From Paracoccus gahaiensis (lineage in GTDB: Bacteria; Pseudomonadota; Alphaproteobacteria; Rhodobacterales; Rhodobacteraceae), in the NCBI RefSeq assembly GCF_005048225.1, contig NZ_SUNI01000015.1, positions 1-64,000 on the forward strand: a stretch of 64,000 nucleotides of DNA, in the 5' to 3' direction. The translations under genes were made by a program, and so were the position numbers. Positions 9,091 to 20,890 of this stretch are shown in pieces (the stretch's first letter is position 1; each line of letters begins with the position of its first letter). The notes below the pieces were generated by a model. It did not search any database and was not told the origin of the DNA. It worked only from the letters and a program-made list of their open reading frames with translations.

Positions 9091-10176
9091 TTATTTCTTT
9101 CCAAGCATTCGGGCTTTGTCTTGCATCCTATTTATCGACTCTGCAACCCCTGTCGAAGCTTGAAAAACAGTTGGATGGGCGGCGAACGCCTGACCGGCCC
9201 GACCAACAGCATTCTCACCTCGACGGGTTTGGCCGGGCGCGGAGGCAATAGCCGAGCCCGCAGAGCCAATAGTTTTACCTGTCGATATAGCCCCCTTGCC
9301 GGCATTCATGACGCTTCTCCCCTGCCCCATGAATTTGTTTCCCGCAGTGACAACGCCGAGCAATTGAAGGTTTCCTGACACACTCCCTACGATCATCGGC
9401 AAGAAACCAATACAAAGTAAAATCAGGATCATCAGAACCATGAACGGAAGAAAGTCCCCGATGCTTGCATACCCGGATGTACCGATGCGATTGATCAAGT
9501 CATTACCCATGGAAATCATGATCGAGAAAATCGATGCAATGAAGACAGGATAAAGGGACCAGCTTAAACAGGCGGACAGCCAACGTTCAAAAAAGCCTTT
9601 GGTTGCCTCGAATAATGTCAGAGCAATCATGATCGGGGCGAGGCCCAAGAGCACAGTGATGACGACCTTGGGAAACAGGATCATCAATGCGGATGCCGCC
9701 GAGATAAAACCCATGAGAACCAGACAAATCCCGGACACGATGCCTGTCACGAACCAGCCGCCCATTTCAGCTGCAATATTGGTCGCCGCCTCTGCAAATT
9801 GATCCATCATGCGATCAATAGCGGCCGCAAACCCGTCGGTGATGGTGGCCCCGCTGAGGCCATTTCCACTCGATGCAAGTATGCCTCCGGCGACCGCCTC
9901 GATTGCGGCCAGGATCCCGTTCGCGACGGTCCAGAACTGGTTCCAGTTCCATGCGAATATCCCAATCAATGACAGCTTGATCACCAGGCTGAGACATTGG
10001 ACCCACGCCATGGGCCGCAGCTGCACCATCATATTGACGCCGACCAAAGCGACCGCGAGGACTGCCATGTAGCCAACAAGGGTTCCAGACGCCTCGACAA
10101 GTCCCAGAAAAGTTGATCTGGCGGCATTCTCCAGAAACCTTTCAGCTGACTCTATGATCGGTTGAACCGCTGGCAT
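9091..10176 (-). CDS. virB6: T4SS inner-membrane protein VirB6
   Basis: A 361-residue polytopic protein of the VirB6/TrbL family. Hydrophobic segments occur at about residues 25-50, 60-85, 150-185, 190-215 and 230-260, followed by a small-residue-rich C-terminal tail. The conserved Trp-containing early part (FAWNWNQFW) fits the family. VirB6 forms part of the inner-membrane channel that contacts DNA during transfer. The start codon sits one base after the stop of the upstream 195-aa gene, so the two are coupled. Confidence 0.85.
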   Translation of the reverse strand: MPAVQPIIESAERFLENAARSTFLGLVEASGTLVGYMAVLAVALVGVNMMVQLRPMAWVQCLSLVIKLSLIGIFAWNWNQFWTVANGILAAIEAVAGGILASSGNGLSGATITDGFAAAIDRMMDQFAEAATNIAAEMGGWFVTGIVSGICLVLMGFISAASALMILFPKVVITVLLGLAPIMIALTLFEATKGFFERWLSACLSWSLYPVFIASIFSIMISMGNDLINRIGTSGYASIGDFLPFMVLMILILLCIGFLPMIVGSVSGNLQLLGVVTAGNKFMGQGRSVMNAGKGAISTGKTIGSAGSAIASAPGQTRRGENAVGRAGQAFAAHPTVFQASTGVAESINRMQDKARMLGKK

Positions 10177-10177
10177 G

Positions 10178-10765
10178 TCAGCGACCTCGCCATGCCCTGC
10201 AGATATCGATGGACGCTTTCAGGTTTCTGCGCACCAGGCGGCTGACTTCATCTCGCATGACAGGGATTTCGTCCAAACCCCAACTTGCAACCACCGCTTG
10301 ATATGAGGCGTCAGCTTCGTCCCATGATGGATACTCAACTTCGCATGGGCAGCTGCTTGTCTGGACGATATTTTCGTATCTGAAATTGTCGTAAAGGGCT
10401 TTCAGCAAGAGGGCTTGCTGCGCGTCTTCTGGTGGGACATTGGCCGCCCATGCCGGTTCCTCAGGCTTGACGCATCCGTGTCGTGTCAGATTTTGGCCCG
10501 GCGCGGCTTCAGCCAGATCGGGCGTGGTGAAGTCCATGAAGTTGCGATCTGCCTGGGACACAGGCGGCTCCCTCTGGATCTCTGCCATTTGCGGCTCAAG
10601 CATTCCGTCCATGGCAGCCAGCATCGAGTCTCTTTCCGTTTGGGTCAATAACGATGGTTCTGCGCGCGACGGGGAGCCGGCATAATATAGAACCCCTGCA
10701 CCGCCGATGATTGTGCCAAGGATTACTGTTGCCGCGCCTGCCAAGGCTGAGTTGCGATCAATCAT
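10178..10765 (-). CDS. Membrane-anchored T4SS-associated protein of unknown function
   Basis: A 195-residue protein with one N-terminal hydrophobic segment (about residues 9-28, AGAATVILGTIIGGAGVLYY) and a periplasmic remainder with four Cys (GCVKPEE, SSCPCE, DICRAW) that could form disulfides. It sits between virB11 and virB6, its ATG overlapping the virB11 stop, so it belongs to the T4SS operon. It contains FMDFTTPDL, closely similar to the C-terminal LDFTMPDL of the VirB5 encoded in the same operon. No family was recognised. An entry-exclusion or channel-stabilising protein would fit the position, but that is a guess. Confidence 0.7.
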   Translation of the reverse strand: MIDRNSALAGAATVILGTIIGGAGVLYYAGSPSRAEPSLLTQTERDSMLAAMDGMLEPQMAEIQREPPVSQADRNFMDFTTPDLAEAAPGQNLTRHGCVKPEEPAWAANVPPEDAQQALLLKALYDNFRYENIVQTSSCPCEVEYPSWDEADASYQAVVASWGLDEIPVMRDEVSRLVRRNLKASIDICRAWRGR

Positions 10766-11768
10766 GGTTTTGCTCTCCATTGTCCCCGCTCTCGGGGATG
10801 TAAAATTCCAGCACGCCCCGATCGCCGCCGGCGCGGCCGGTCTGGATCACCACGTCGATCGAACTGCCGATGTAGCGCAGCGTGTCGGTATAGGTCAGCG
10901 GCAGCTCTGATTTCAGCGCCATGATGGCGAGTTTCGACAAGGCCAGCCTCGGGGTTTCCGCATGGATCGTGGTCATCGATCCGCCATGGCCGGTATTGAT
11001 CGCTTCGATAAAGGTCATGGCCTCCTTGCCGCGAACCTCGCCGACGATCAGCCGGTCGGGCCGCATCCGCAGACAAGACGTCAGCAGTATGTCCGGCGTC
11101 CTGGTCCGGCTGTCGCGGTCCGCGATCAGCGTCACCACGTTGGGCTGTGTCGGGACCAGCTCGGAGGCGTCCTCGATGGTGATCATCCGTTCGCTGTCGC
11201 TGACATAGGACAGCATCTTGCGGGCGAAGACCGTCTTGCCGCTGTCGGTCGCGCCCGCGATCAGGGCGTTCATCTTGTGACCGACAATGAACGCCATGGC
11301 CGCGTCAATATCCCCGGAGGCCGCCAGATCTTTCAGTTCGCGTTTGGTCTCCGCGCGGGCCTTGTCCACCGAGTACTCCTGGCCATGCAGGTATTTCACC
11401 TTGATCTGGTCGAGAGGCAGAGACGAGAAGAACCGCATCGAGATGGCCGCACCCGACAGCACGGCAGGTTCTGCCACCACCTGTGCACGGATCGGACGGC
11501 CCCGGTAATCCACGGAGGTCGAGATGATCGGGGCGTCCCTGCCGAGGGTCAGCTTGCCCGCGCTGGCGATGATCCGGCCCAGGTCGGTGACTTCCTGCCG
11601 GTTCATCGAGTCGCGGGCTACCAGCTTCATCGCCGGATCGCCGTGTTCCAGCGACCAGATGCGGCCGTCCGGATTGATGGCGATTTCCACCAAGGCGGGG
11701 CTGTCGATGACAGCCCCGATCCGGGCCAGGGCTTCGTCGAGATAGCTGCCATGGGTCATAACGTTCAT
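10758..11768 (-). CDS. virB11: T4SS ATPase VirB11
   Basis: A 336-residue hexameric secretion ATPase of the VirB11/PulE family. It contains the N-terminal domain, the linker with RPIRAQVV, Walker A GATDSGKT (Asp where many VirB11 have Gly, but the GxxxxGKT pattern is kept), the Asp box MITIEDASEL, Walker B LRMRPDRLIVGEVRG and a His box with TGHGGSMTTIHA. ATG 11768 is two bases past the virB10 stop. Longer in-frame extensions upstream run inside virB10 and are not real. Confidence 0.95.
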   Translation of the reverse strand: MNVMTHGSYLDEALARIGAVIDSPALVEIAINPDGRIWSLEHGDPAMKLVARDSMNRQEVTDLGRIIASAGKLTLGRDAPIISTSVDYRGRPIRAQVVAEPAVLSGAAISMRFFSSLPLDQIKVKYLHGQEYSVDKARAETKRELKDLAASGDIDAAMAFIVGHKMNALIAGATDSGKTVFARKMLSYVSDSERMITIEDASELVPTQPNVVTLIADRDSRTRTPDILLTSCLRMRPDRLIVGEVRGKEAMTFIEAINTGHGGSMTTIHAETPRLALSKLAIMALKSELPLTYTDTLRYIGSSIDVVIQTGRAGGDRGVLEFYIPESGDNGEQNHD

Positions 11769-11770
11769 GC

Positions 11771-13192
11771 TCAGAATATCTCCAGATCGCGGTCCACCAT
11801 CACGGTGATCCGGGTGCCCTGGGCCACGCTGATGGTCGGCGGCATCGACACATACTTGCCGATGGCCGAGTTGGTCGCACCGCCGAGAGCGTCGGAGACT
11901 TCGGTCGCGGCATCGTTCGATCCTCCCGTGGAAATGGTCACGCCGCCATCGTTGGTGTCGTTTTCCACAAGTGATGGGATGGCCGAGATCGTGGAGATCA
12001 GCGCCGCCGCCCCGAAGCGGCGGACAAAGTGGTTGTTGACCTTGCCGGTGGTCCCGGAACGGCCCAGAGCATCGCCGCCGAACGAGCTGATCTGCACCGA
12101 CTGGTTGTCGGGCATGATGATGCGTTCCCAAGCCACCAGAAGCCGGTTTTGACCGGTATCCACGTCAGCGGAGTAGCTGCCGATCAGGCGAGATCCGCGC
12201 GGGATCAGGATGCGCGAGCCGTCATGGGCGACCACATCGGTGGTCACGAGGCCACGGATCGGACCTTCCAGCGTCGAGTCGATGGCCGTTTCCAGCACCG
12301 CCTGAATCATCGTGCCCTGCGTGACGGTGTTGGACGGATTGACGATGATTTCCGCGCGTTGCACCTGAACCGGACGACCGGCATCCCGCACAAACTGCGC
12401 GTCACTGCTCAGCCGTGCTGCCTGCTGTGCAGCTGCCCCGTCACCCAGACCCGCCGCTCCCGCGCCAGCACCCGCCGCGCCACCGCCTCCCCCGCCAAGT
12501 GCGACCATGGACGACTGCCGCCGCGCCTGTTCCAGCTGCCCGGCCTCATCCGCCGATTGCCGGCGCTGCGTTAGCAGATCGTCAGTGCTGCCCGGCATCA
12601 CGCTTTGCCCGGTTTGCAGGCGCATCATGTCCATCTGATTGTTCAGCCCGGCGATTTGCAGGTCACGGCTGCTCAACGCATCCCGCAGTTCCTGTTCGCG
12701 GGACTGCGCCTCTTCGCGCAGCTGTTCCAACTCACCACGCATCTGCTCGAGAGCTTCGGTATCCAGGACAGGTTCGACATCGCTCTCTTCAGCCGGGGCA
12801 TCCGCCAGGCGGTCGATCTGGTCTTGCAGCCCCCGGATCAGGTCAGCCAACTCGGAGCCCTCGTTGACCGGGGCAGGCTCAGGGGTGGTGTCCGGCGCAG
12901 CCATCAGCACCGGTTCCGGGGCGGCGTCGGGAGCCAGGCGCGGCGCGCTGTCCAGATCGCCAAAGCCGCTGCCCTCGCGCTGGAACTCGCTGGCCCTGCT
13001 GACATCGAGGTCCGCCGCACCTTCCGGCTGAGAGTAGACATAGACCAACCCGGCAATCAGCGCCCCGCCGCAGAGCAATCCGGTCATCCTGGCGGCATTT
13101 GCCGCAGGACGCGCCTTCCGCGCTGCCTTGGGGTCCGATTTCTCCAGCCCTGCCAAGCGTTCGCGCAGGTCGATGCTGTCCTGATCGCTCAC
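11771..13192 (-). CDS. virB10: T4SS core protein VirB10/TrbI
   Basis: A 473-residue protein with a short cytoplasmic N-terminus, one membrane helix (about residues 33-50, MTGLLCGGALIAGLVYVY), a long variable periplasmic stretch with coiled coil (about 140-200), and the C-terminal TrbI/VirB10 beta-barrel domain (VLIPRGSRLIGSYSADV, VQISSFGGDALGRSG). VirB10 spans both membranes and senses energy from VirB11/VirD4. It overlaps virB9 by 4 bp. A Gly/Ala-rich linker occurs near residues 230-255 instead of the usual Pro-rich one. Confidence 0.95.
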   Translation of the reverse strand: MSDQDSIDLRERLAGLEKSDPKAARKARPAANAARMTGLLCGGALIAGLVYVYSQPEGAADLDVSRASEFQREGSGFGDLDSAPRLAPDAAPEPVLMAAPDTTPEPAPVNEGSELADLIRGLQDQIDRLADAPAEESDVEPVLDTEALEQMRGELEQLREEAQSREQELRDALSSRDLQIAGLNNQMDMMRLQTGQSVMPGSTDDLLTQRRQSADEAGQLEQARRQSSMVALGGGGGGAAGAGAGAAGLGDGAAAQQAARLSSDAQFVRDAGRPVQVQRAEIIVNPSNTVTQGTMIQAVLETAIDSTLEGPIRGLVTTDVVAHDGSRILIPRGSRLIGSYSADVDTGQNRLLVAWERIIMPDNQSVQISSFGGDALGRSGTTGKVNNHFVRRFGAAALISTISAIPSLVENDTNDGGVTISTGGSNDAATEVSDALGGATNSAIGKYVSMPPTISVAQGTRITVMVDRDLEIF

Positions 13193-13902
13193 TGCACCAA
13201 CCTCACGGCTTTCATCATCCCCACGGTGGATTCAACCGAACCCAAGCGCAGCATCCAGAATGGGCTGGTGCCCGTGACCCGCACCACGCCATCGGGCAGG
13301 GTCTGGGAATTGACGGTGACTTCCTGACCCGCCGTGACCTTGAAGATCGCCGGCAGTTCGCCGTTGCGGCGGAAGGCGAAGTAGGTGAAGGCCCCGTCAT
13401 CCCAGACTTCCGTGGGCGTGGTGCCGTTCACGATGCTGCCGCCGTAATCATGATTGAGCGGTCCGCGGGCCACGTGGCGGTTGGCGGGCGTGGTGCCGCC
13501 CGAGCCTCGCGGATAGGTGAAGCGGACCACTGAGAACTGCGCCGAGGCGCTTTCAGAGACTTCGAAGTAGTATTGCCGCTTGTTGGTGTAGACATTGATG
13601 TTCGTGGCCGCCCCGCTGGTGGTGGGCTTCATCACGAAGGCGCTGCCGCCCGGCACTGCATCGAAGTTGAAGCTGACGGTATCGCCTGCGACGACAGAGG
13701 TGATCTGCTCATCGGGGCCGAACTCCACGGAGGTGACCCGGCCAACCTGCGTCTGGACCCGGTAGACCTGTCCATCAACCCATTGGGCATAACGCACGCG
13801 GGCATCGAGATTGCCCGCCCGGGGGGTGACTTCGGCCAAAGCGACCGAGGCCCCCATGCAGACCGCGCACAAGGCCACGGCAAAACGAATACCCCGCATC
13901 AC
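13189..13902 (-). CDS. virB9: T4SS outer-membrane complex protein VirB9
   Basis: A 237-residue protein with a signal peptide (cleavage probably after ASVALA), then the VirB9/CagX/TrbG domain with EFGPDEQITSVVAGDT, MKPTTSGAATNINVYTNKR and the C-terminal DGAFTYFAFRRNGELPAIF. VirB9 joins VirB10 and a VirB7-type lipoprotein in the outer-membrane core complex. It overlaps virB10 and virB8 by 4 bp each. Confidence 0.95.
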   Translation of the reverse strand: MMRGIRFAVALCAVCMGASVALAEVTPRAGNLDARVRYAQWVDGQVYRVQTQVGRVTSVEFGPDEQITSVVAGDTVSFNFDAVPGGSAFVMKPTTSGAATNINVYTNKRQYYFEVSESASAQFSVVRFTYPRGSGGTTPANRHVARGPLNHDYGGSIVNGTTPTEVWDDGAFTYFAFRRNGELPAIFKVTAGQEVTVNSQTLPDGVVRVTGTSPFWMLRLGSVESTVGMMKAVRLVQ

Positions 13903-14597
13903 TGGACCTCCAACCTGTCAGAGGTGATTGCGTATTCGTAGACGGAGAAGCCAAACGGGTTGGTCCAGACCTCTTCCAGCGACCGGGCCTCGCTGGTCTC
14001 ATAGCGGAGCGCCAGGGTGACGGTGAACAGCCCCTGGGTCTCCCCGTCATCGTTCTGCAGCCGCTTGCGCAGCCGCACCTGTGCCCGGTCATTGGTGATC
14101 AGCGTTACCGAAAGGACCTCCACATCCATGCGGGCACGCGGCCCGTATTTGCGCTGCGGATAATCCGGGTTCTCCGAGGCCCAGAGGCTGCGCATGGAGT
14201 GCAGGGCTGCCCCCGAGGACCGGGCCAGCACCAAGCGGACCCGCAGATCGTTGTCGAGCATGCTGTAGGTTTCCCGGTCGCGGACATAGGCATGGACGAG
14301 AGATTGGACGACCGCATCGCGGTTGCTGACGGAGATCGTTTCCAGATTGACCATCGGCAGGGCCATGCCGCTGCTCGGATCGAACGGCACCAGGACTGGG
14401 GCCGGGGACTCGAGGCTGGCCGCGATCACCGCCGCCATGATGCAGCCGACGGCGCCGAAGCCCCAACCCGCCACGCCGAATTTCTGCCAGAAGGCCCCGC
14501 GCCGGCGCTCGCCATAGATCAGCTCTTCTTCCGTTTCACTGACTCTCCGGTTTGCGACGGCGACGGCTTGCGCCATATTATTTTTGCGATTGAACAT
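13899..14597 (-). CDS. virB8: T4SS assembly factor VirB8
   Basis: About 232 residues: a short cytoplasmic N-terminus, one membrane helix (about 45-65, FGAVGCIMAAVIAASLESP) and a periplasmic NTF2-like VirB8 domain with the conserved YVRDRETYSMLDND. VirB8 is a bitopic inner-membrane protein that nucleates channel assembly. I prefer ATG 14597; a GTG at 14609 that overlaps the virB5 stop is an alternative. It overlaps virB9 by 4 bp. Confidence 0.93.
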   Translation of the reverse strand: MFNRKNNMAQAVAVANRRVSETEEELIYGERRRGAFWQKFGVAGWGFGAVGCIMAAVIAASLESPAPVLVPFDPSSGMALPMVNLETISVSNRDAVVQSLVHAYVRDRETYSMLDNDLRVRLVLARSSGAALHSMRSLWASENPDYPQRKYGPRARMDVEVLSVTLITNDRAQVRLRKRLQNDDGETQGLFTVTLALRYETSEARSLEEVWTNPFGFSVYEYAITSDRLEVQ

Positions 14598-14605
14598 CGG
14601 TGGCC

Positions 14606-15394
14606 TCACTGCAAATCCGGCATGGTGAAATCGAGCATCTGCTGCTCCTGCGCCCAGGCACTGGCCTGCGACACGTCTGACATGCCCATCCCGTAGCTCT
14701 GGATGGCGAGCAGCTGGTTGTTCTTGATCAGCTCACTGACCGCCTCGCCCATCATCCGCGTGTTCAGATCTATGGCCTCCTTAATGCCGGTTTGCTGCGG
14801 GATTTCCCCTACCAGACTGTCGAGGCGCTGCAGGCTGACCGCTGTTTCCCGCTGCGCGGTGTCGGCCGAGGCTGCCACCAGCGCCCCGGTGGTGGCTTGG
14901 CCTGCGGCGCGTCTTTCCGCCACGGTGCCGTCCCGGCCCATGGCTTCGACCCGCGCAGGATCGAGGCCTGCCCCGATCATCGTAGACTGCGCGGCGGCCT
15001 GGATTTGCTCGCGGTAGCCTGACGACAGGCCCGACCAGTCGCCCGAGGATGCCGAGTTCGCCGTCTGCAGGATGCTGGTCATTTTCGGATCGAGAACCGC
15101 ATCCAGCCCGCCGCCCATGAGAAGCCCCTGAATGTCGGCATTGCCGGTCAGGACGGCATAGATCTGCTGCAATTCATTCGTCTGCGATTGCAGTTCAGCT
15201 AATTGCTCAATGAATTGGTCCAGCATGTCGCTCTGAATGCCGTAATCTTCCAGCATCCGCCGGATCTGGATGATCTGCTGCGAAATGGACTGAGTATCAA
15301 CGGTCGGCACCCCTTGCGCCGTGACCGGCGCGGGCAGCGCCACAGACAGGCACACACCCGCGCCGGCGATCAGTCCCTTGACTGCGTTTCGCAT
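14606..15394 (-). CDS. virB5: T4SS minor pilin VirB5
   Basis: A 262-residue exported protein: signal peptide to about residue 26 (APVTA-QG), then long helices with IIQIRRMLEDYGIQSDMLDQ and ending in LDFTMPDLQ. Layout and length fit VirB5/TraC minor pilins, which sit at the pilus tip and mediate contact with recipients. The gene directly upstream (stop 15396) encodes a transglycosylase whose C-terminal part aligns without gaps to residues 177-256 here, so the two share a common VirB5-type region. Confidence 0.85.
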   Translation of the reverse strand: MRNAVKGLIAGAGVCLSVALPAPVTAQGVPTVDTQSISQQIIQIRRMLEDYGIQSDMLDQFIEQLAELQSQTNELQQIYAVLTGNADIQGLLMGGGLDAVLDPKMTSILQTANSASSGDWSGLSSGYREQIQAAAQSTMIGAGLDPARVEAMGRDGTVAERRAAGQATTGALVAASADTAQRETAVSLQRLDSLVGEIPQQTGIKEAIDLNTRMMGEAVSELIKNNQLLAIQSYGMGMSDVSQASAWAQEQQMLDFTMPDLQ

Positions 15395-15395
15395 C

Positions 15396-16598
15396 TTACA
15401 ATCCCCCTTGAAAGTTCATGAAGGCGCGTTCCTGCGCAAAGGCTGAGGCTGCCCCGACTTCAGTCGCGGTCATCGGCTTGGAACGGACCGCGACCAGTCG
15501 CGTCCTGATGATCAGCAGGCGCACGAACTCGGCCCGCATATAGCTGTTCAGCGCCATGGCCTCAGCTGCATTCGTTGTGTCTCCAAGACGCGACATGGCC
15601 TCGTTCAGGCGGTCCATCGCCAGCCCCATGTCCTGCCCGGCCTCATCCGCATATTCGGCCGTGGCCCCACCGATCATCGCCCGGTCGGCATTGGCCATAT
15701 AGCTGGCTTCGATGGAGCCGATCTGGTCGGCAGCACCGAGGGCGGCCATGTATTCTCGATACTTGGTCGGGATGATCTGAACGTATTTCCGGGTTTCCGG
15801 GAAAGGCGGCACGCCGCCATGTCGGCGCACATTGCCCGCCCCGGCATTGTAGGCCGCCAGCGCCAGGATCATCTCGCCGTCAAATTCGTTCAGACGCTGC
15901 GCCAGATAGCGCGCACCACCCTCTGCCTGAATGTAAGGGTCATTCCGATAGGTGTTTCTGATGCCCAGATCACCCGCCGTATCAGGCATGATCTGGGTCA
16001 GGCCGTAGGCCCCGACCGGCGATTGGGCATGCGGGTTGAACCGGCTTTCCTGCCAGACCAGCGCCTGCAACCAGCATCGCCACTGGATCGGCGACAGTCC
16101 CGCGCGCTGCATGTGGTGGGTGTCTGCCGCCGCGCGAATGATGATCTGTTCCACGTTTTCGCGCGCGCCACTGAACAGGCGGTCGGCAGCGGCGCTGTTC
16201 TCGGTCGCATACACATCGGCTACCGGGGCCGCGCCGTCCTCAAGGCCACTCATCATGTCCTCCGCCCCGGCGCCGTCATCGGGCAGGGTCATCCCGCCCG
16301 TGACGGCCTCAAGTGCCGCGACCTGCTCACGGTCGGCTTCAAGGCGCCTGCGCCCTTCCTCGGCCTTCTGCCGTTGCAGAACCAGGTCCGCCTCCAGCCG
16401 CAGGGTGATTTCCGCCTCACGGGCATTCTTGGCCGGATCGACCACCGGCACACCCTGCGCCATCGCAGTGCTGGACAGCATCAGGACAAGAAGAGGCACG
16501 CGCAGAGCCAACCGCAGGATGCCCGCCGGCCCTTGCTCGTTCCTTGACGTCTCGCGCGGGCCTGTCCCCAACGTGGCATTAGTATCACCGTTGCGCAT
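15396..16598 (-). CDS. VirB1-like lytic transglycosylase with VirB5-like ends
   Basis: A 400-residue exported protein. After a signal peptide (to about residue 48) the mature N-terminus reads AQGVPVVD, like AQGVPTVD in VirB5, and continues as a charged helix (55-100). Residues 165-285 form an SLT lysozyme-like domain with catalytic Glu in VWQESRFNPH (about E184), GAYGLTQIMP and AAYNAGAGNV. Residues 317-396 align gaplessly with VirB5 177-256 (by hand about 27 identities in 80), including ASAFAQE versus ASAWAQE. The predicted role is local cutting of peptidoglycan for T4SS assembly, perhaps placed at the pilus by the VirB5-like part. ATG 16598 overlaps the lipoprotein gene stop by 14 bp. Confidence 0.85.
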   Translation of the reverse strand: MRNGDTNATLGTGPRETSRNEQGPAGILRLALRVPLLVLMLSSTAMAQGVPVVDPAKNAREAEITLRLEADLVLQRQKAEEGRRRLEADREQVAALEAVTGGMTLPDDGAGAEDMMSGLEDGAAPVADVYATENSAAADRLFSGARENVEQIIIRAAADTHHMQRAGLSPIQWRCWLQALVWQESRFNPHAQSPVGAYGLTQIMPDTAGDLGIRNTYRNDPYIQAEGGARYLAQRLNEFDGEMILALAAYNAGAGNVRRHGGVPPFPETRKYVQIIPTKYREYMAALGAADQIGSIEASYMANADRAMIGGATAEYADEAGQDMGLAMDRLNEAMSRLGDTTNAAEAMALNSYMRAEFVRLLIIRTRLVAVRSKPMTATEVGAASAFAQERAFMNFQGGL

Positions 16599-16812
16599 AG
16601 GGACCGTCCTCGACCGCGCCTTCATAGACGCCCACCTGCCGCACGGCATCCCGGCGCGCTTCGCCCCAGAGTTCCGGCAGGGGGCGCAGGTCGCAGGTCA
16701 GATCGCCGCGCGCATTGAAGCATTTGCTGCTGACCGGCTGCGATGGGGTGCCCGCGCAAGCCGACAAGGCCAGGGTCGCCAAAACGGCGCAGAGGGTATG
16801 TTTACGCATCAT
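16585..16812 (-). CDS. Small lipoprotein, VirB7-like
   Basis: A 75-residue protein with a lipoprotein signal ending in the lipobox LSAC (lipidated Cys at about residue 19), followed by a short tail with two further Cys. Size, lipobox and location in the virB operon fit VirB7, the lipoprotein that anchors VirB9 in the outer membrane. Sequence alone is too short to prove it. ATG 16812 (or 16809) overlaps the virB4 stop. Confidence 0.75.
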   Translation of the reverse strand: MMRKHTLCAVLATLALSACAGTPSQPVSSKCFNARGDLTCDLRPLPELWGEARRDAVRQVGVYEGAVEDGPYAQR

Positions 16813-19180
16813 CAAAACCTTTCCAGAAATCGGGGCGGGTCCGGTAGTCCGCGCCCACCAGCGCCTCACCGGCCTTCATGCCGCCGAGGATGGTCAGGAG
16901 CGGGCCGAGAGCCGACAGGTCGGTGTCGATGACGTGCGATCCGTCATCGGAGCGCAGCAGGGCGATGCGCGATCCGGGGTTCACGCCCATGAGGATTTCC
17001 AGCTCCTTCTGGTTCAGACCGAGACCGGCATAATCTTCAGGATTGGCTTCCTTGTTCGGCAGCAGCATCTTGGTGGGCAGCGCCTGCAACAGGGTCCGCC
17101 CGTGGGCGGAGGCGTTCAGCTGATGCGCAAACTGCGTCATCATCACCACGACCGTGTTCTGCTTCCGCGCTGTCACCAGCCAGTTCTCGATCCGGCCCGC
17201 GAAGTAGGTGTTATCCAGCGCCTTCCAGGCTTCATCGATGATGATGATCGTCGGGCGCTTGTCCTCGATCTGCCGTTCGATGCGCCGGAAGATGTAGGAC
17301 AGCACCGCCATGCGGGCCCTCGGATTTTCGCTGTCCAGAATGTCGGTCAGGTCAAAACCCACAAACTGCCCGTCCAGCGAGAAGTTGTCCTCGACCTCGC
17401 GCCCGAAGATCCATCCGAAGCGATGCCCCTCTGTCCATTCGTTCAGCCGGTCTGCCAATGCCCCGCCGTCATGGGTGGAGCCGACCAGCTGCGCAAACTG
17501 TGTCCATGTCCGCAGGTTCGGGTTTCGCGCCTCGGCGTTCTGGCGCACGGCGTTGCGCACCGCGCGGGATTGTTCGGGCTGAAGTTGACTATGGCCGGTT
17601 TCCATCAGGTGGATGAGCCAGTCGCTCAGCCATTCCTGCCCGGACGTGTCCGTCTCCACCCAGAGCGGGTTGAGGCCGGTGCGTTCACCCGCCTTCAGTT
17701 CCGAATACCGACCCCCGAGGGCGCGCACGGCCATTTCCAGGCCCCGGCGATAGTCGAAGACAAACACCCGCGCGCCCACGCGCTGTGCCTGCGCGGCCAG
17801 AAACGCCGCCTGCACCGATTTGCCCGATCCCATCCGACCCAGGACCAACGTATGGCCGTTGCTCGGCTCCTTGGTCGGATCGCCCGCCTCGTGGAAATTG
17901 AACCGATAGGCGCTGCGCGAGATGGTCGGAAACCAGGTGATCGGCGTGGCCCATGGCACATTGTCGCCGCTCTTGCCCATCGCCGCACAATGCAGGGCGG
18001 CGAAGTCGGTAAACTGTTCGTTGGTGATCGCACCTTCCCGGATGCGAAAGGCCCGGTTGCACGGATGCTGGCCGAAATAGACGGTGCGCGCCGTGTAGCC
18101 CTGCGACACCAGCTTGACGCCCGCGGTCACCGCGATGTTGCGGATCATCGAGCTGATCCGGGCCAGCTCTTCCTCGCTGTCGGCGTAGACGGCGACGGCC
18201 ATCTGATGTTGCCCGAACGAGATTTCTCCCGAAGCCAGCCGGTTCTGCGCCTCGCCCAGGGCATCGATCAGATTGGCGGCCTTGTCGTTGATTGCGGCGC
18301 GGCGGCGCAGTTCCCGCGAGATCCGCTCTTCCATGATGCCGTTGTTGACCGGGACATAGTAGTTCGACACCACCATATCGACGGGCAGGTCCAGTTCATC
18401 GAACATGGTCACGAAGGAGTCGCGGGGAAATTCCTTGATCGAGTAGATCATCCCCACCCGATCCGGCAGGCTGCCCCCGGTCAGATAGATCTTGTCGCCC
18501 TTGAAGGTGACGCGGGTGTTGGACACAGTCTCCGCAATGGACCGGTCCAGCGCCGTGTGGAAAGTCGGCACCTCGATGCCGGTGTTGATGCTTTCCAGAA
18601 ACCCGAGCAGTTGGCCGCTCGATGCGGTCAGCACCTGCGGGTCCATGTGCGACAGGGCCGAACAGAGAAATTCCACGACTTCCTGCAGCTGGCCCACTTG
18701 GCCGTCGATCTGCCGGGCGAGCAGTTCCTGCGATTTGCGCGGCGTGTAGGGGATCTTCGACAGCACGTCAGGCCGCTTGATGACGGTGATGGTGATTGTG
18801 TGCTCGCGCAGGTTGGCCCGGCGCATATGTGCCTGCCAGCGCCGATCGATCCGGGCGGCAAGCCCGTCACCCATGACGGGCGGCAGGTCTGTCTCGATAC
18901 GGCGCGAGACCTTGTGGACGGTATAGGCAAACTTGTCGCCGGTCTGGGCGATGATGCTGGCAAAGATCTCCTTCATCCGGTCCAGCATCTCGTCGGCGAC
19001 CGTCAAACTGTTCAGCCCGGCGACGCGAATGCACTGGAACAACTCGTTGCCCCTGGTGCGGATGGTCAGGTCATCGATCAGCGAGACATAGGGCAGCATC
19101 GAGGCCACCGACTGTTCCCGGCTGGCCCATGCGGGCAGGGCATCGAGGGCGGCAGGCCCGATCCGAAGATCACGGTTCAT
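16802..19180 (-). CDS. virB4: T4SS ATPase VirB4
   Basis: A 792-residue VirB4/CagE-family ATPase. The N-terminal CagE-TrbE-VirB4 region spans about 1-400. The ATPase domain has Walker A VLGRMGSGKSVQAAFLA (about residue 445) and Walker B TIIIIDEAWKAL (about 650), plus a conserved arginine/glutamine region QFAHQLNASAHGR. VirB4 powers pilus biogenesis and substrate transfer at the inner membrane. The start overlaps the virB3 end by 11 bp. Confidence 0.96.
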   Translation of the reverse strand: MNRDLRIGPAALDALPAWASREQSVASMLPYVSLIDDLTIRTRGNELFQCIRVAGLNSLTVADEMLDRMKEIFASIIAQTGDKFAYTVHKVSRRIETDLPPVMGDGLAARIDRRWQAHMRRANLREHTITITVIKRPDVLSKIPYTPRKSQELLARQIDGQVGQLQEVVEFLCSALSHMDPQVLTASSGQLLGFLESINTGIEVPTFHTALDRSIAETVSNTRVTFKGDKIYLTGGSLPDRVGMIYSIKEFPRDSFVTMFDELDLPVDMVVSNYYVPVNNGIMEERISRELRRRAAINDKAANLIDALGEAQNRLASGEISFGQHQMAVAVYADSEEELARISSMIRNIAVTAGVKLVSQGYTARTVYFGQHPCNRAFRIREGAITNEQFTDFAALHCAAMGKSGDNVPWATPITWFPTISRSAYRFNFHEAGDPTKEPSNGHTLVLGRMGSGKSVQAAFLAAQAQRVGARVFVFDYRRGLEMAVRALGGRYSELKAGERTGLNPLWVETDTSGQEWLSDWLIHLMETGHSQLQPEQSRAVRNAVRQNAEARNPNLRTWTQFAQLVGSTHDGGALADRLNEWTEGHRFGWIFGREVEDNFSLDGQFVGFDLTDILDSENPRARMAVLSYIFRRIERQIEDKRPTIIIIDEAWKALDNTYFAGRIENWLVTARKQNTVVVMMTQFAHQLNASAHGRTLLQALPTKMLLPNKEANPEDYAGLGLNQKELEILMGVNPGSRIALLRSDDGSHVIDTDLSALGPLLTILGGMKAGEALVGADYRTRPDFWKGFDDA

Positions 19181-19453: not shown

Positions 19454-19771
19454 TTACTGACCCCACATCGCGTTCACGATGACGCTGGCACCGGCGACGA
19501 TGGCGATACCGGCGACGACATAGACGACTGTGCGGAAATCGACATAGCCCATCAGCCAGGCAGCCCCGATGCCGATCACCGCCAGCGTGGCCATGGCCCG
19601 ACCAAGCGGGCCGGTCAGGGTGGTGGCGATGCCGGTCAGAATGTTGGTGATCGGGCTGAGGTCCACCGTGCCCTGGGCCAGTGCAGGCGAGGTCATCAGC
19701 ACGAGGAGCCCGACCGCCAGCAAGGAAAACAGCAAAAGGCTCATTGCCGGAACTGGCAGGGATCTGGTCAT
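19454..19771 (-). CDS. virB2: T4SS major pilin VirB2
   Basis: A 105-residue pilin precursor: long signal peptide with cleavage probable after SPALA (about residue 32), then two hydrophobic helices separated by a short loop (GPLGRAMATLAVIGIGAAWL and FRTVVYVVAGIAIVAG). This is the standard VirB2/TrbC architecture. The start overlaps the upstream transglycosylase gene by 4 bp. Confidence 0.93.
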   Translation of the reverse strand: MTRSLPVPAMSLLLFSLLAVGLLVLMTSPALAQGTVDLSPITNILTGIATTLTGPLGRAMATLAVIGIGAAWLMGYVDFRTVVYVVAGIAIVAGASVIVNAMWGQ

Positions 19772-20388
19772 AAGGTATCTCCGTTCAATCGGGTAAAGAC
19801 GGCCATGACCTTGCGGACGTGACCTTGGGTCTCGCGGTAGGGCGGAATGCCCCCGTGTCGCGAAACAGCATCCGGGCCAGCGTTATAGCCAGCCAGCGCC
19901 AGCTCCTTCGATCCGAAGCGGTCGAGGAGAAGGAGCAGGTATCGGGCAGAACCGTCGAGGTTCTGATGCATGTCATGGGGGTCCACACCAAGCGTGGCGG
20001 CCGTGCCTGGCATCAGCTGGCCGAGGCCGATGGCCCCGACATGGCTGCGCGCCCGAGGGTTGTAGGCACTCTCGATCTCGATATTGGCGCGATAGAAATG
20101 CCGCCATTCCATGACCGACATGTCCACTTTGCGCAGGGCGACGTGACCGCCGTAGCGCATCGCCGTCTGATCAATGGCATTGAGGACGTCTTCGCTTCCG
20201 AAAACAGCGCGCGGTGCAACAAAACCGCTGTCCGGTTCTGAAAGAAACGACATGGTATCTTGAGAAGGAGAGGCCGAGCGTTCCGCCTCTGGGATTATTG
20301 GTTGCCCGTCTGATCCGAAATGGCGGGCGAAACCGTTACTCTGTTCCCGGTATTGAAAGGTCCCATCGGACCCCGGCACAAGAACCAT
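19768..20388 (-). CDS. Second lytic transglycosylase (SLT family), start uncertain
   Basis: The clear part is an SLT domain with a catalytic Glu in IEIESAYNPRA, GAIGLGQLMPGTAATLG and LAGYNAGPDAV, ending at 19768. This is VirB1-like peptidoglycan hydrolysis. The first ATG consistent with the domain is at 20388 (206 aa). In the same frame just upstream lies an excellent signal peptide (FLDGLSPAAFACLFAGL...ATACLG, about 20405-20475) without ATG, GTG or TTG before it. The next in-frame ATG, at 20649, would overlap the 133-aa gene by about 160 bp. A non-standard CTG-type start, a frameshift or translational coupling is therefore likely for the exported form. It ends 4 bp into virB2. Confidence 0.8.
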   Translation of the reverse strand: MVLVPGSDGTFQYREQSNGFARHFGSDGQPIIPEAERSASPSQDTMSFLSEPDSGFVAPRAVFGSEDVLNAIDQTAMRYGGHVALRKVDMSVMEWRHFYRANIEIESAYNPRARSHVGAIGLGQLMPGTAATLGVDPHDMHQNLDGSARYLLLLLDRFGSKELALAGYNAGPDAVSRHGGIPPYRETQGHVRKVMAVFTRLNGDTL

Positions 20389-20488
20389 GCCCTGCCCGAG
20401 GCACGCAGTTGCATTAACTGTCAGCCCCGCGAAAAGGCAGGCAAATGCCGCCGGGGAGAGGCCATCGAGAAAACGCCGTGTTGGGGCT

Positions 20489-20890
20489 TCAGCTCCCGCT
20501 CTTGTCCGAAGGGTTTTTGGAAAGTGCCTGGATCGTTCGGCCCCCGGAGAGGAAGGGAATATCCAGATGCGTGAAACCAGCTTCGTGCATGAATGACGAC
20601 AGGCCGTTAATGGTTTTGAAGACCCTGATCTTGATTTCGTCCATGTCATCGACCCGCCGCGGCGTGGTGACAAGAAGTTTTTCGATCGTCCTGTCTGGAT
20701 TGACGACGCGGACGGTCCATTCGCCATACCAAACGGACGCTTTGCGATATGCCGCAACCTGGCACACCACCTCAGCGAGGTAGCCGCTGGCGATGAGCTT
20801 TCTGAACCGGGGTTCGGTAACCACATTCGGCGTTTCTTTTTCTAACTCTATTTCCACGCCGGTGGCCCTCCCATTGGTAGGACCCGGCAC
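20489..20890 (-). CDS. First gene of the virB operon, unknown 133-aa protein
   Basis: A hydrophilic protein of up to 133 residues without signal peptide, membrane segment or recognised domain. Motifs that may help identify it are YRKASVWYGEWTVRVVNPD and EIKIRVFKTINGLSSFMHEA. It is the promoter-proximal gene of the T4SS operon. ATG 20890 lacks a clear ribosome binding site. A GTG at 20857 is preceded by GGGAGG and may be the true start, giving 122 residues. A regulatory role in conjugation is plausible from position only. Confidence 0.65.
   Translation of the reverse strand: MPGPTNGRATGVEIELEKETPNVVTEPRFRKLIASGYLAEVVCQVAAYRKASVWYGEWTVRVVNPDRTIEKLLVTTPRRVDDMDEIKIRVFKTINGLSSFMHEAGFTHLDIPFLSGGRTIQALSKNPSDKSGS

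Follow-up and report, generated by a model that had tools for sequence, protein, structure and literature searches.

In R388, VirB5 is described as a pentamer that sits on the VirB6 pentamer and becomes the tip of the pilus (PMC9259494, PMC12624023), and wall-cutting enzymes of the VirB1 type are described as often not essential (PMC9259494, PMC12857230). In Agrobacterium, VirB1* is a C-terminal piece of the transglycosylase that is reported to interact with VirB5 (PMC2653234, PMC6536674). Wall enzymes joined to a part that places them at the machine are found among the multi-domain VirB1 proteins of Gram-positive bacteria, such as PrgK and TraG, which have membrane anchors and further hydrolase domains; the passages on wall enzymes in the paper that describes them mention no VirB1-VirB5 fusion (PMC12857230). 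Tandem virB5 genes have been described in Lysobacter, with no enzyme domain mentioned for either in the passage concerned (PMC6536674). The pYEE5 plasmid of Paracoccus yeei encodes a lytic murein transglycosylase between a VirB4-like and a VirB5-like protein, and a second one after a VirB2-like protein; the account of this cluster reads both as VirB1 stand-ins and makes there no mention of a likeness to VirB5 (PMC6209633). Among the papers listed in searches of the open-licence literature we saw no description of a VirB1-VirB5 fusion, nor of a VirB5 paralogue of the kind reported here.

The window that we analysed is a stretch of 64,000 nucleotides from Paracoccus gahaiensis (contig NZ_SUNI01000015.1), whose gene cluster (Table 1) further includes relaxase, virD4, virB3 and virB2 genes. 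By sequence comparison, the lytic transglycosylase encoded in the slot between virB4 and virB5 is a chimera, whose mature N-terminus and C-terminal ~95 residues are homologous to the adjacent VirB5 and stand in the same order. It resembles VirB5 (PF07996; TraC of pKM101, TrwJ of R388) in the N-terminal mature motif, the first helix and the C-terminal helices, and the two genes adjoin, as do the two VirB5-type genes of Lysobacter; it differs in having an SLT domain instead of the VirB5 middle, and in falling, as a whole protein, under the cut-offs of the VirB5 models. Like VirB1 and VirB1* of Agrobacterium, it is a T4SS SLT enzyme with a C-terminal extension, but its extension, like its N-terminus, is homologous to VirB5 itself, and the virB1 position is held by a separate SLT gene. 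Whereas PrgK and TraG have membrane anchors, the chimera has a VirB5 scaffold. Judging by gene order, the pYEE5 transglycosylase beside the VirB5-like protein is probably this same gene, likewise in the slot. The 94-aa protein between virB4 and the chimera is VirB7-like by position alone, and could be VirB7.

Table 1. Features of the window cluster, with the SLT-less slot proteins of other loci in the last row
Feature	Position	Strand	Remark
virB6	9091..10176	minus	PF04610
200-aa protein beside virB6, displays NFMDFTTPDL	10178..10780	minus	no Pfam family; N-terminus with a hydrophobic stretch (by eye)
VirB5-tail peptide within the 200-aa protein	10515..10534	minus	other of two genome occurrences
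virB8, virB9, virB10	11771..14609	minus	
virB5, 262 aa	14606..15394	minus	PF07996
VirB5 C-terminal tail DFTxPDL	14613..14632	minus	one of two genome occurrences
virB5/transglycosylase chimera, the slot protein between virB4 and virB5	15396..16598	minus	400 aa from ATG at 16598; longer ORF (417 aa) starts at 16649
VirB5-like C-terminal part of chimera	15411..15689	minus	ungapped BLASTP vs VirB5 164-256; hhalign 1.7e-14
SLT (family 1 lytic transglycosylase) domain, invariant WQESRF glutamate	15810..16070	minus	PF01464
VirB5-like N-terminal part of mature chimera (AQGVPVVD...)	16287..16460	minus	hhalign 2e-11; predicted helix 9-57 (AF2)
94-aa protein, lipobox-like LSAC (by eye), between virB4 and chimera	16585..16869	minus	
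virB4	16802..19180	minus	
Second SLT protein, ordinary virB1 position	19768..20826	minus	uncertain start; the L021 annotation is shorter
VirB5-like paralogue without SLT, virB4-virB5 slot of other loci	L060 7534-8373; L108 1618-2469; L109 1502-2428; L110 1527-2423; L112 1620-2378		annotated hypothetical

A sequence-only reading of this DNA had matched residues 317-396 of the transglycosylase (400-aa numbering) to residues 177-256 of VirB5. The match is indeed gap-free, at an offset of 140 and with exactly 27 identities; the motif pair ASAFAQE (chimera) and ASAWAQE (VirB5) and the mature starts AQGVPVVD and AQGVPTVD are present as described, and the SLT domain (PF01464, E 7.3e-25, 87 bits) lies between the VirB5-like ends. 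The pairwise and profile alignments that the same reading had proposed agree with it. BLASTP of the chimera against the neighbouring VirB5, as a single comparison, returns one ungapped alignment of 93 residues, 31 of them identical (E 5e-12). For profile comparison, the chimera alignment comprised 39 rows: the mature chimera of the window, 36 rows picked by diversity from the 120 listed of 1727 matches (one of which, P0001, is the window's chimera again), and two from the matches to the VirB5 query. The VirB5 alignment comprised 50 rows, namely the window's VirB5 and 49 of 94 VirB5 matches. With hhalign the two families align end to end (P 1.9e-19), the SLT domain falling opposite the VirB5 middle. 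When the parts are compared separately, the first 80 mature residues of the chimera match VirB5 with P 2e-11 over 58 columns, the last 122 residues match with P 1.7e-14 over 99 columns; no match is seen for the SLT part (P 0.45). That is, the VirB5 middle region is absent from the chimera, and PF01464 occupies its place.

The matched parts are helical in the predicted models, as they would be if the likeness were a product of coiled coils or of compositional chance. We regard this explanation as extremely improbable, because the controls fail: the best P value from 30 column shuffles of the VirB5 alignment was 0.087 for the N-terminal part and 0.11 for the C-terminal part, and the reversed alignment gave 0.1 and 0.037, respectively. 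Moreover, each half matches VirB5 alone and in register, and reciprocal HMM matches occur in 49/49 loci (38-70 bits for the VirB5 HMM on the chimera, 45-76 bits for the chimera HMM on VirB5). By these tests, both the N-terminal mature helix and the C-terminal helices are recognised as VirB5 homologues.

Over the chimera family, invariant residues are kept at both VirB5-like ends. The VirB5 query alone retrieved two chimeras among its 96 matches (E 8.9e-6 and 1.3e-5). PF07996 was already annotated, as a precomputed match, on three of the 120 listed chimera matches, and it matches 24 of the 39 alignment rows at E <= 0.1 (best 9.8e-9). For the window's chimera this match is weak (E 0.022 with the 417-aa ORF, 0.014 with the mature part; 16.3 bits against a curated cut-off of 24.7), and TIGR02791 gives no match at E <= 0.1. 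There is also a weak match (E 0.014) between the first 62 positions of the chimera profile, about a third of them signal peptide, and residues 2-63 of TrwJ (7o3v). AlphaFold gives a fair model of the chimera (pLDDT 79), with a long N-terminal helix, the SLT domain and three C-terminal helices; its best matches among solved structures are SLT domains, and the matches listed cover mainly its SLT domain. For VirB5 the model is too poor (mean pLDDT 57) for the folds of the two proteins to be compared, and the predicted structures speak neither for nor against the likeness to VirB5.

As to the enzyme, PF01464 scores over its cut-off, as for a VirB1 SLT domain, and E138, which we take to be the catalytic glutamate, is invariant in 39/39 rows of the chimera alignment. 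The N-terminus looks signal-like by eye. The gene does not lie at the virB1 position, the operon head, where a separate SLT gene is found in the window and in three further loci (L018, L019, L021). By analogy with VirB1*, including its reported interaction with VirB5, the C-terminal part of the chimera might be cleaved, secreted and active on its own in pilus formation; cleavage would leave the VirB5-like N-terminal end unexplained, and we consider this course of events very unlikely.

The same fusion, which the sequence-only reading had suggested looking for in other Rhodobacterales, is present there: the chimera profile has a match at E <= 1e-45 in 126 of 390 sampled genomes, and most matches listed for Rhodobacterales genomes cover nearly the whole model. 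A class-wide sample contributed three model-spanning matches among the matches listed. We read 56 loci by script, 49 of Rhodobacterales type and seven from Hyphomicrobiales plasmids; the 49, one of which is the window (L022), include a few that are MAGs or carry the label of another family, and two of them (L008 and L069) look like one organism. A VirB5 ORF directly follows the chimera in 49/49, and no virB1 ORF occurs among the VirB5-HMM matches listed for the scripted loci (up to three per locus). On annotated plasmids of Dinoroseobacter, Marinibacterium and Paracoccus, the gene order is virB1-virB2-virB3-virB4-(small gene)-chimera-virB5.

We scored the ends of the chimera against own-operon and other VirB5s in 18 Rhodobacterales-type loci that are under 90% alike, drawn from 44 (5/49 were dropped, the strict motif not being found). 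The C-terminal 105 residues score 108 against their own VirB5 versus 88 against others (0/10000 permutations; median own rank 3.5 of 18). The effect is modest for the 26 N-terminal residues (45.2 versus 42.8; 251/10000; median own rank 9 of 18), and there is no own-operon effect for the 58 N-terminal residues (2574/10000). For the 26 residues of the mature start, own VirB5 scores 44.7 versus 32.4 in seven Rhodobacterales loci (75/10000; own ranks first in 3/7), and 38.5 versus 29.8 in 15 Hyphomicrobiales loci (0/10000; own ranks first in 3/15). These scores are indications, because the permutations ignore relatedness; as such, they suggest that the C-terminal ends match the VirB5 of their own operon better, on average, than they match other VirB5s. 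The chimera and VirB5 use the same codon at 65 of 140 matching N-terminal residues, and so recent gene conversion does not look likely.

Hyphomicrobiales plasmids have slot proteins of their own in the virB4-virB5 interval; an SLT domain is present in some of these and absent from others. We considered 17 loci with a readable stretch before virB5, a non-random set picked from similarity searches. The slot holds an SLT protein in ten of them (L020, L052, L053, L056, L058, L105, L106, L107, L113, L114), a protein without a recognised SLT domain in six (L060, L108-L112), and a 45-aa gene alone in one (L061). The SLT-less proteins occur in Nitrobacter, Bosea, Afipia, Bradyrhizobium and Methylocystis; the one from L060 has no Pfam family, those from L109 and L110 have no NCBIfam match, and those from L108, L111 and L112 were classed as SLT-less by alignment and eye. 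An alignment of five of the six, without L111, matches Hyphomicrobiales VirB5 (15 sequences) end to end (1.1e-11; score 83.6, with 18.7 as the best among 30 shuffles). For the SLT-bearing Hyphomicrobiales form (35 rows), the N-terminus matches VirB5 (5.9e-9; score 49.2 versus 17.6 shuffled), the C-terminus is marginal (0.0031; score 26.2 versus 25.8 for the best shuffle), and the SLT part does not match (0.79). Apart from this, the slot gene looks interrupted in L111 (1529-2424) and L114 (1262-2429), where its parts lie in two overlapping annotated frames.

The sequence-only reading had seen the SLT domain as inserted into a duplicated virB5. A VirB5-derived scaffold around the domain is supported: both flanks are homologous to VirB5, the gene has a fixed place before virB5, and there are slot proteins without SLT. 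Its route of origin may have been duplication followed by insertion, or another. In a tree of 49 SLT domains, whose root is arbitrary and which rests on a short alignment (124 columns) with some long branches, the Rhodobacterales slot domains share a group of 29 rows (support 100/99) with VirB1 domains, two of these from Hyphomicrobiales and the others from Rhodobacterales, and the Hyphomicrobiales slot domains fall at three other places. A single clade of all slot SLT domains is rejected (p-AU 0.007); thus the enzyme probably entered the virB4-virB5 slot more than once. The VirB5 families of the two orders are mutually homologous (7.4e-11), and the C-terminal part of the Rhodobacterales chimera resembles its own VirB5 and matches neither Hyphomicrobiales VirB5 (0.23) nor the Hyphomicrobiales slot proteins. 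Given the tree, the rejected clade and this resemblance to its own VirB5 family only, there are two possibilities: several separate fusions, or an exchange of SLT domains during which the ends kept pace with VirB5.

These patterns bear on the view that an SLT domain ended up in a duplicated virB5 by chance, the VirB5-like ends now being of use for export and stability alone and the enzyme acting as a free second VirB1. Such a view fits the dispensability often described for VirB1-type enzymes (PMC9259494, PMC12857230), as well as the pYEE5 account with its two VirB1 stand-ins (PMC6209633). It does not fit the invariant residues kept at both ends over the family, C-terminal ends that follow the partner VirB5, or a slot that has taken in SLT domains of more than one lineage; we find it distinctly unlikely.

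A third protein of the cluster shares the VirB5 tail: the NFMDFTTPDL of the 200-aa protein is close to the tail QMLDFTMPDL of VirB5. Searched as a DNA pattern, DFTxPDL has two occurrences in the 4.18-Mb genome, exactly in these two genes, against 0 for a backward control pattern. Of the tail, the window's chimera has the part that comes before this motif (AFAQERAFMNF); it ends in FMNF without DFTxPDL, and FMDF is the reading in relatives, P0215 and P0216 among them. A tblastn search with the 200-aa protein led to 11 loci, of which nine have [FV][ML]DF..PDL, two of these (L008, L016) in two copies, and the other two have divergent versions. No such tail was seen by eye in four Roseobacter loci. 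As a separate observation, three Nitrobacteraceae loci encode, right after virB5, a protein of 61-67 aa with a hydrophobic N-terminus (L108 3220-3405, L110 3173-3367, L111 3156-3359); six residues before its end stands ASRAMTFTQ, which resembles the tail ARAMKFTQ of the VirB5 in the same operon.

We lean, with modest confidence, towards the view that the chimera is a paralogue of VirB5 and docks its wall-cutting domain at the stalk of VirB6 and VirB5. In this reading the first helix and the last helices of VirB5 are kept, with the SLT domain in place of the middle; after export, the VirB5-like ends would bind where VirB5 binds, at the base of the VirB6 stalk or in the VirB5 pentamer, and peptidoglycan would be opened along the axis of the growing, VirB5-tipped pilus. 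The 200-aa tail protein might hold or compete for the docking site, which is a guess. The sequences show the homology of both ends; that the protein is exported, is active as an enzyme, docks on VirB6/VirB5 and cuts there is what we infer. The sequence-only reading had already supposed that the VirB5-like part may carry the enzyme to the site of pilus assembly, and such carriage becomes likelier because the ends match the partner VirB5 and a third protein shares the tail. In favour of docking are the profile matches with their controls, the 49/49 loci, the 126 of 390 Rhodobacterales genomes, the Hyphomicrobiales slot with its SLT-less form, the own-operon match, the polyphyly of the SLT domains, the shared tail, and VirB5 on VirB6 as described in R388 (PMC9259494). 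Against it are the poor VirB5 model, the patchy N-terminal own-operon effect, the median ranks of the own VirB5 (3.5 and 9 of 18), the marginal Hyphomicrobiales C-terminal part, a Rhodobacterales C-terminal part that does not match Hyphomicrobiales VirB5, and a chimera without DFTxPDL; in addition, since its middle is not VirB5, the chimera may not form a pentamer.

Tail-tip lysozymes of phages offer a comparison for wall cutting borne at a tip. Likewise, the chimera could enter the tip complex of the pilus alongside VirB5 as a minor component, exit the cell with it and cut the recipient's wall, a reading we hold to be possible though rather unlikely. Both ends are VirB5-like and tend to match the partner VirB5, an ordinary VirB1-type SLT gene is present in the operon for the donor's own wall, and VirB5 is described as a tip protein (PMC9259494, PMC12624023); yet a tip-borne SLT domain would still have to get through the outer-membrane complex, and nothing in the sequence separates the tip from docking at the stalk. 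In an extended form, which we put forward as an unlikely conjecture, the chimera would be a wall-cutting pilus head that assembles with VirB5 through the shared ends and a lineage-specific tail code on several operon proteins, opening the recipient wall at the tip, and such heads would have arisen more than once.

Under docking at the stalk, a transglycosylase with VirB5's own ends suggests how the wall cut could stay where the DNA-transfer pilus must pass, and this is directly testable. The presence of more than one SLT lineage in one slot, together with the sharing of the tail, suggests a docking code, which simple deletions could map.
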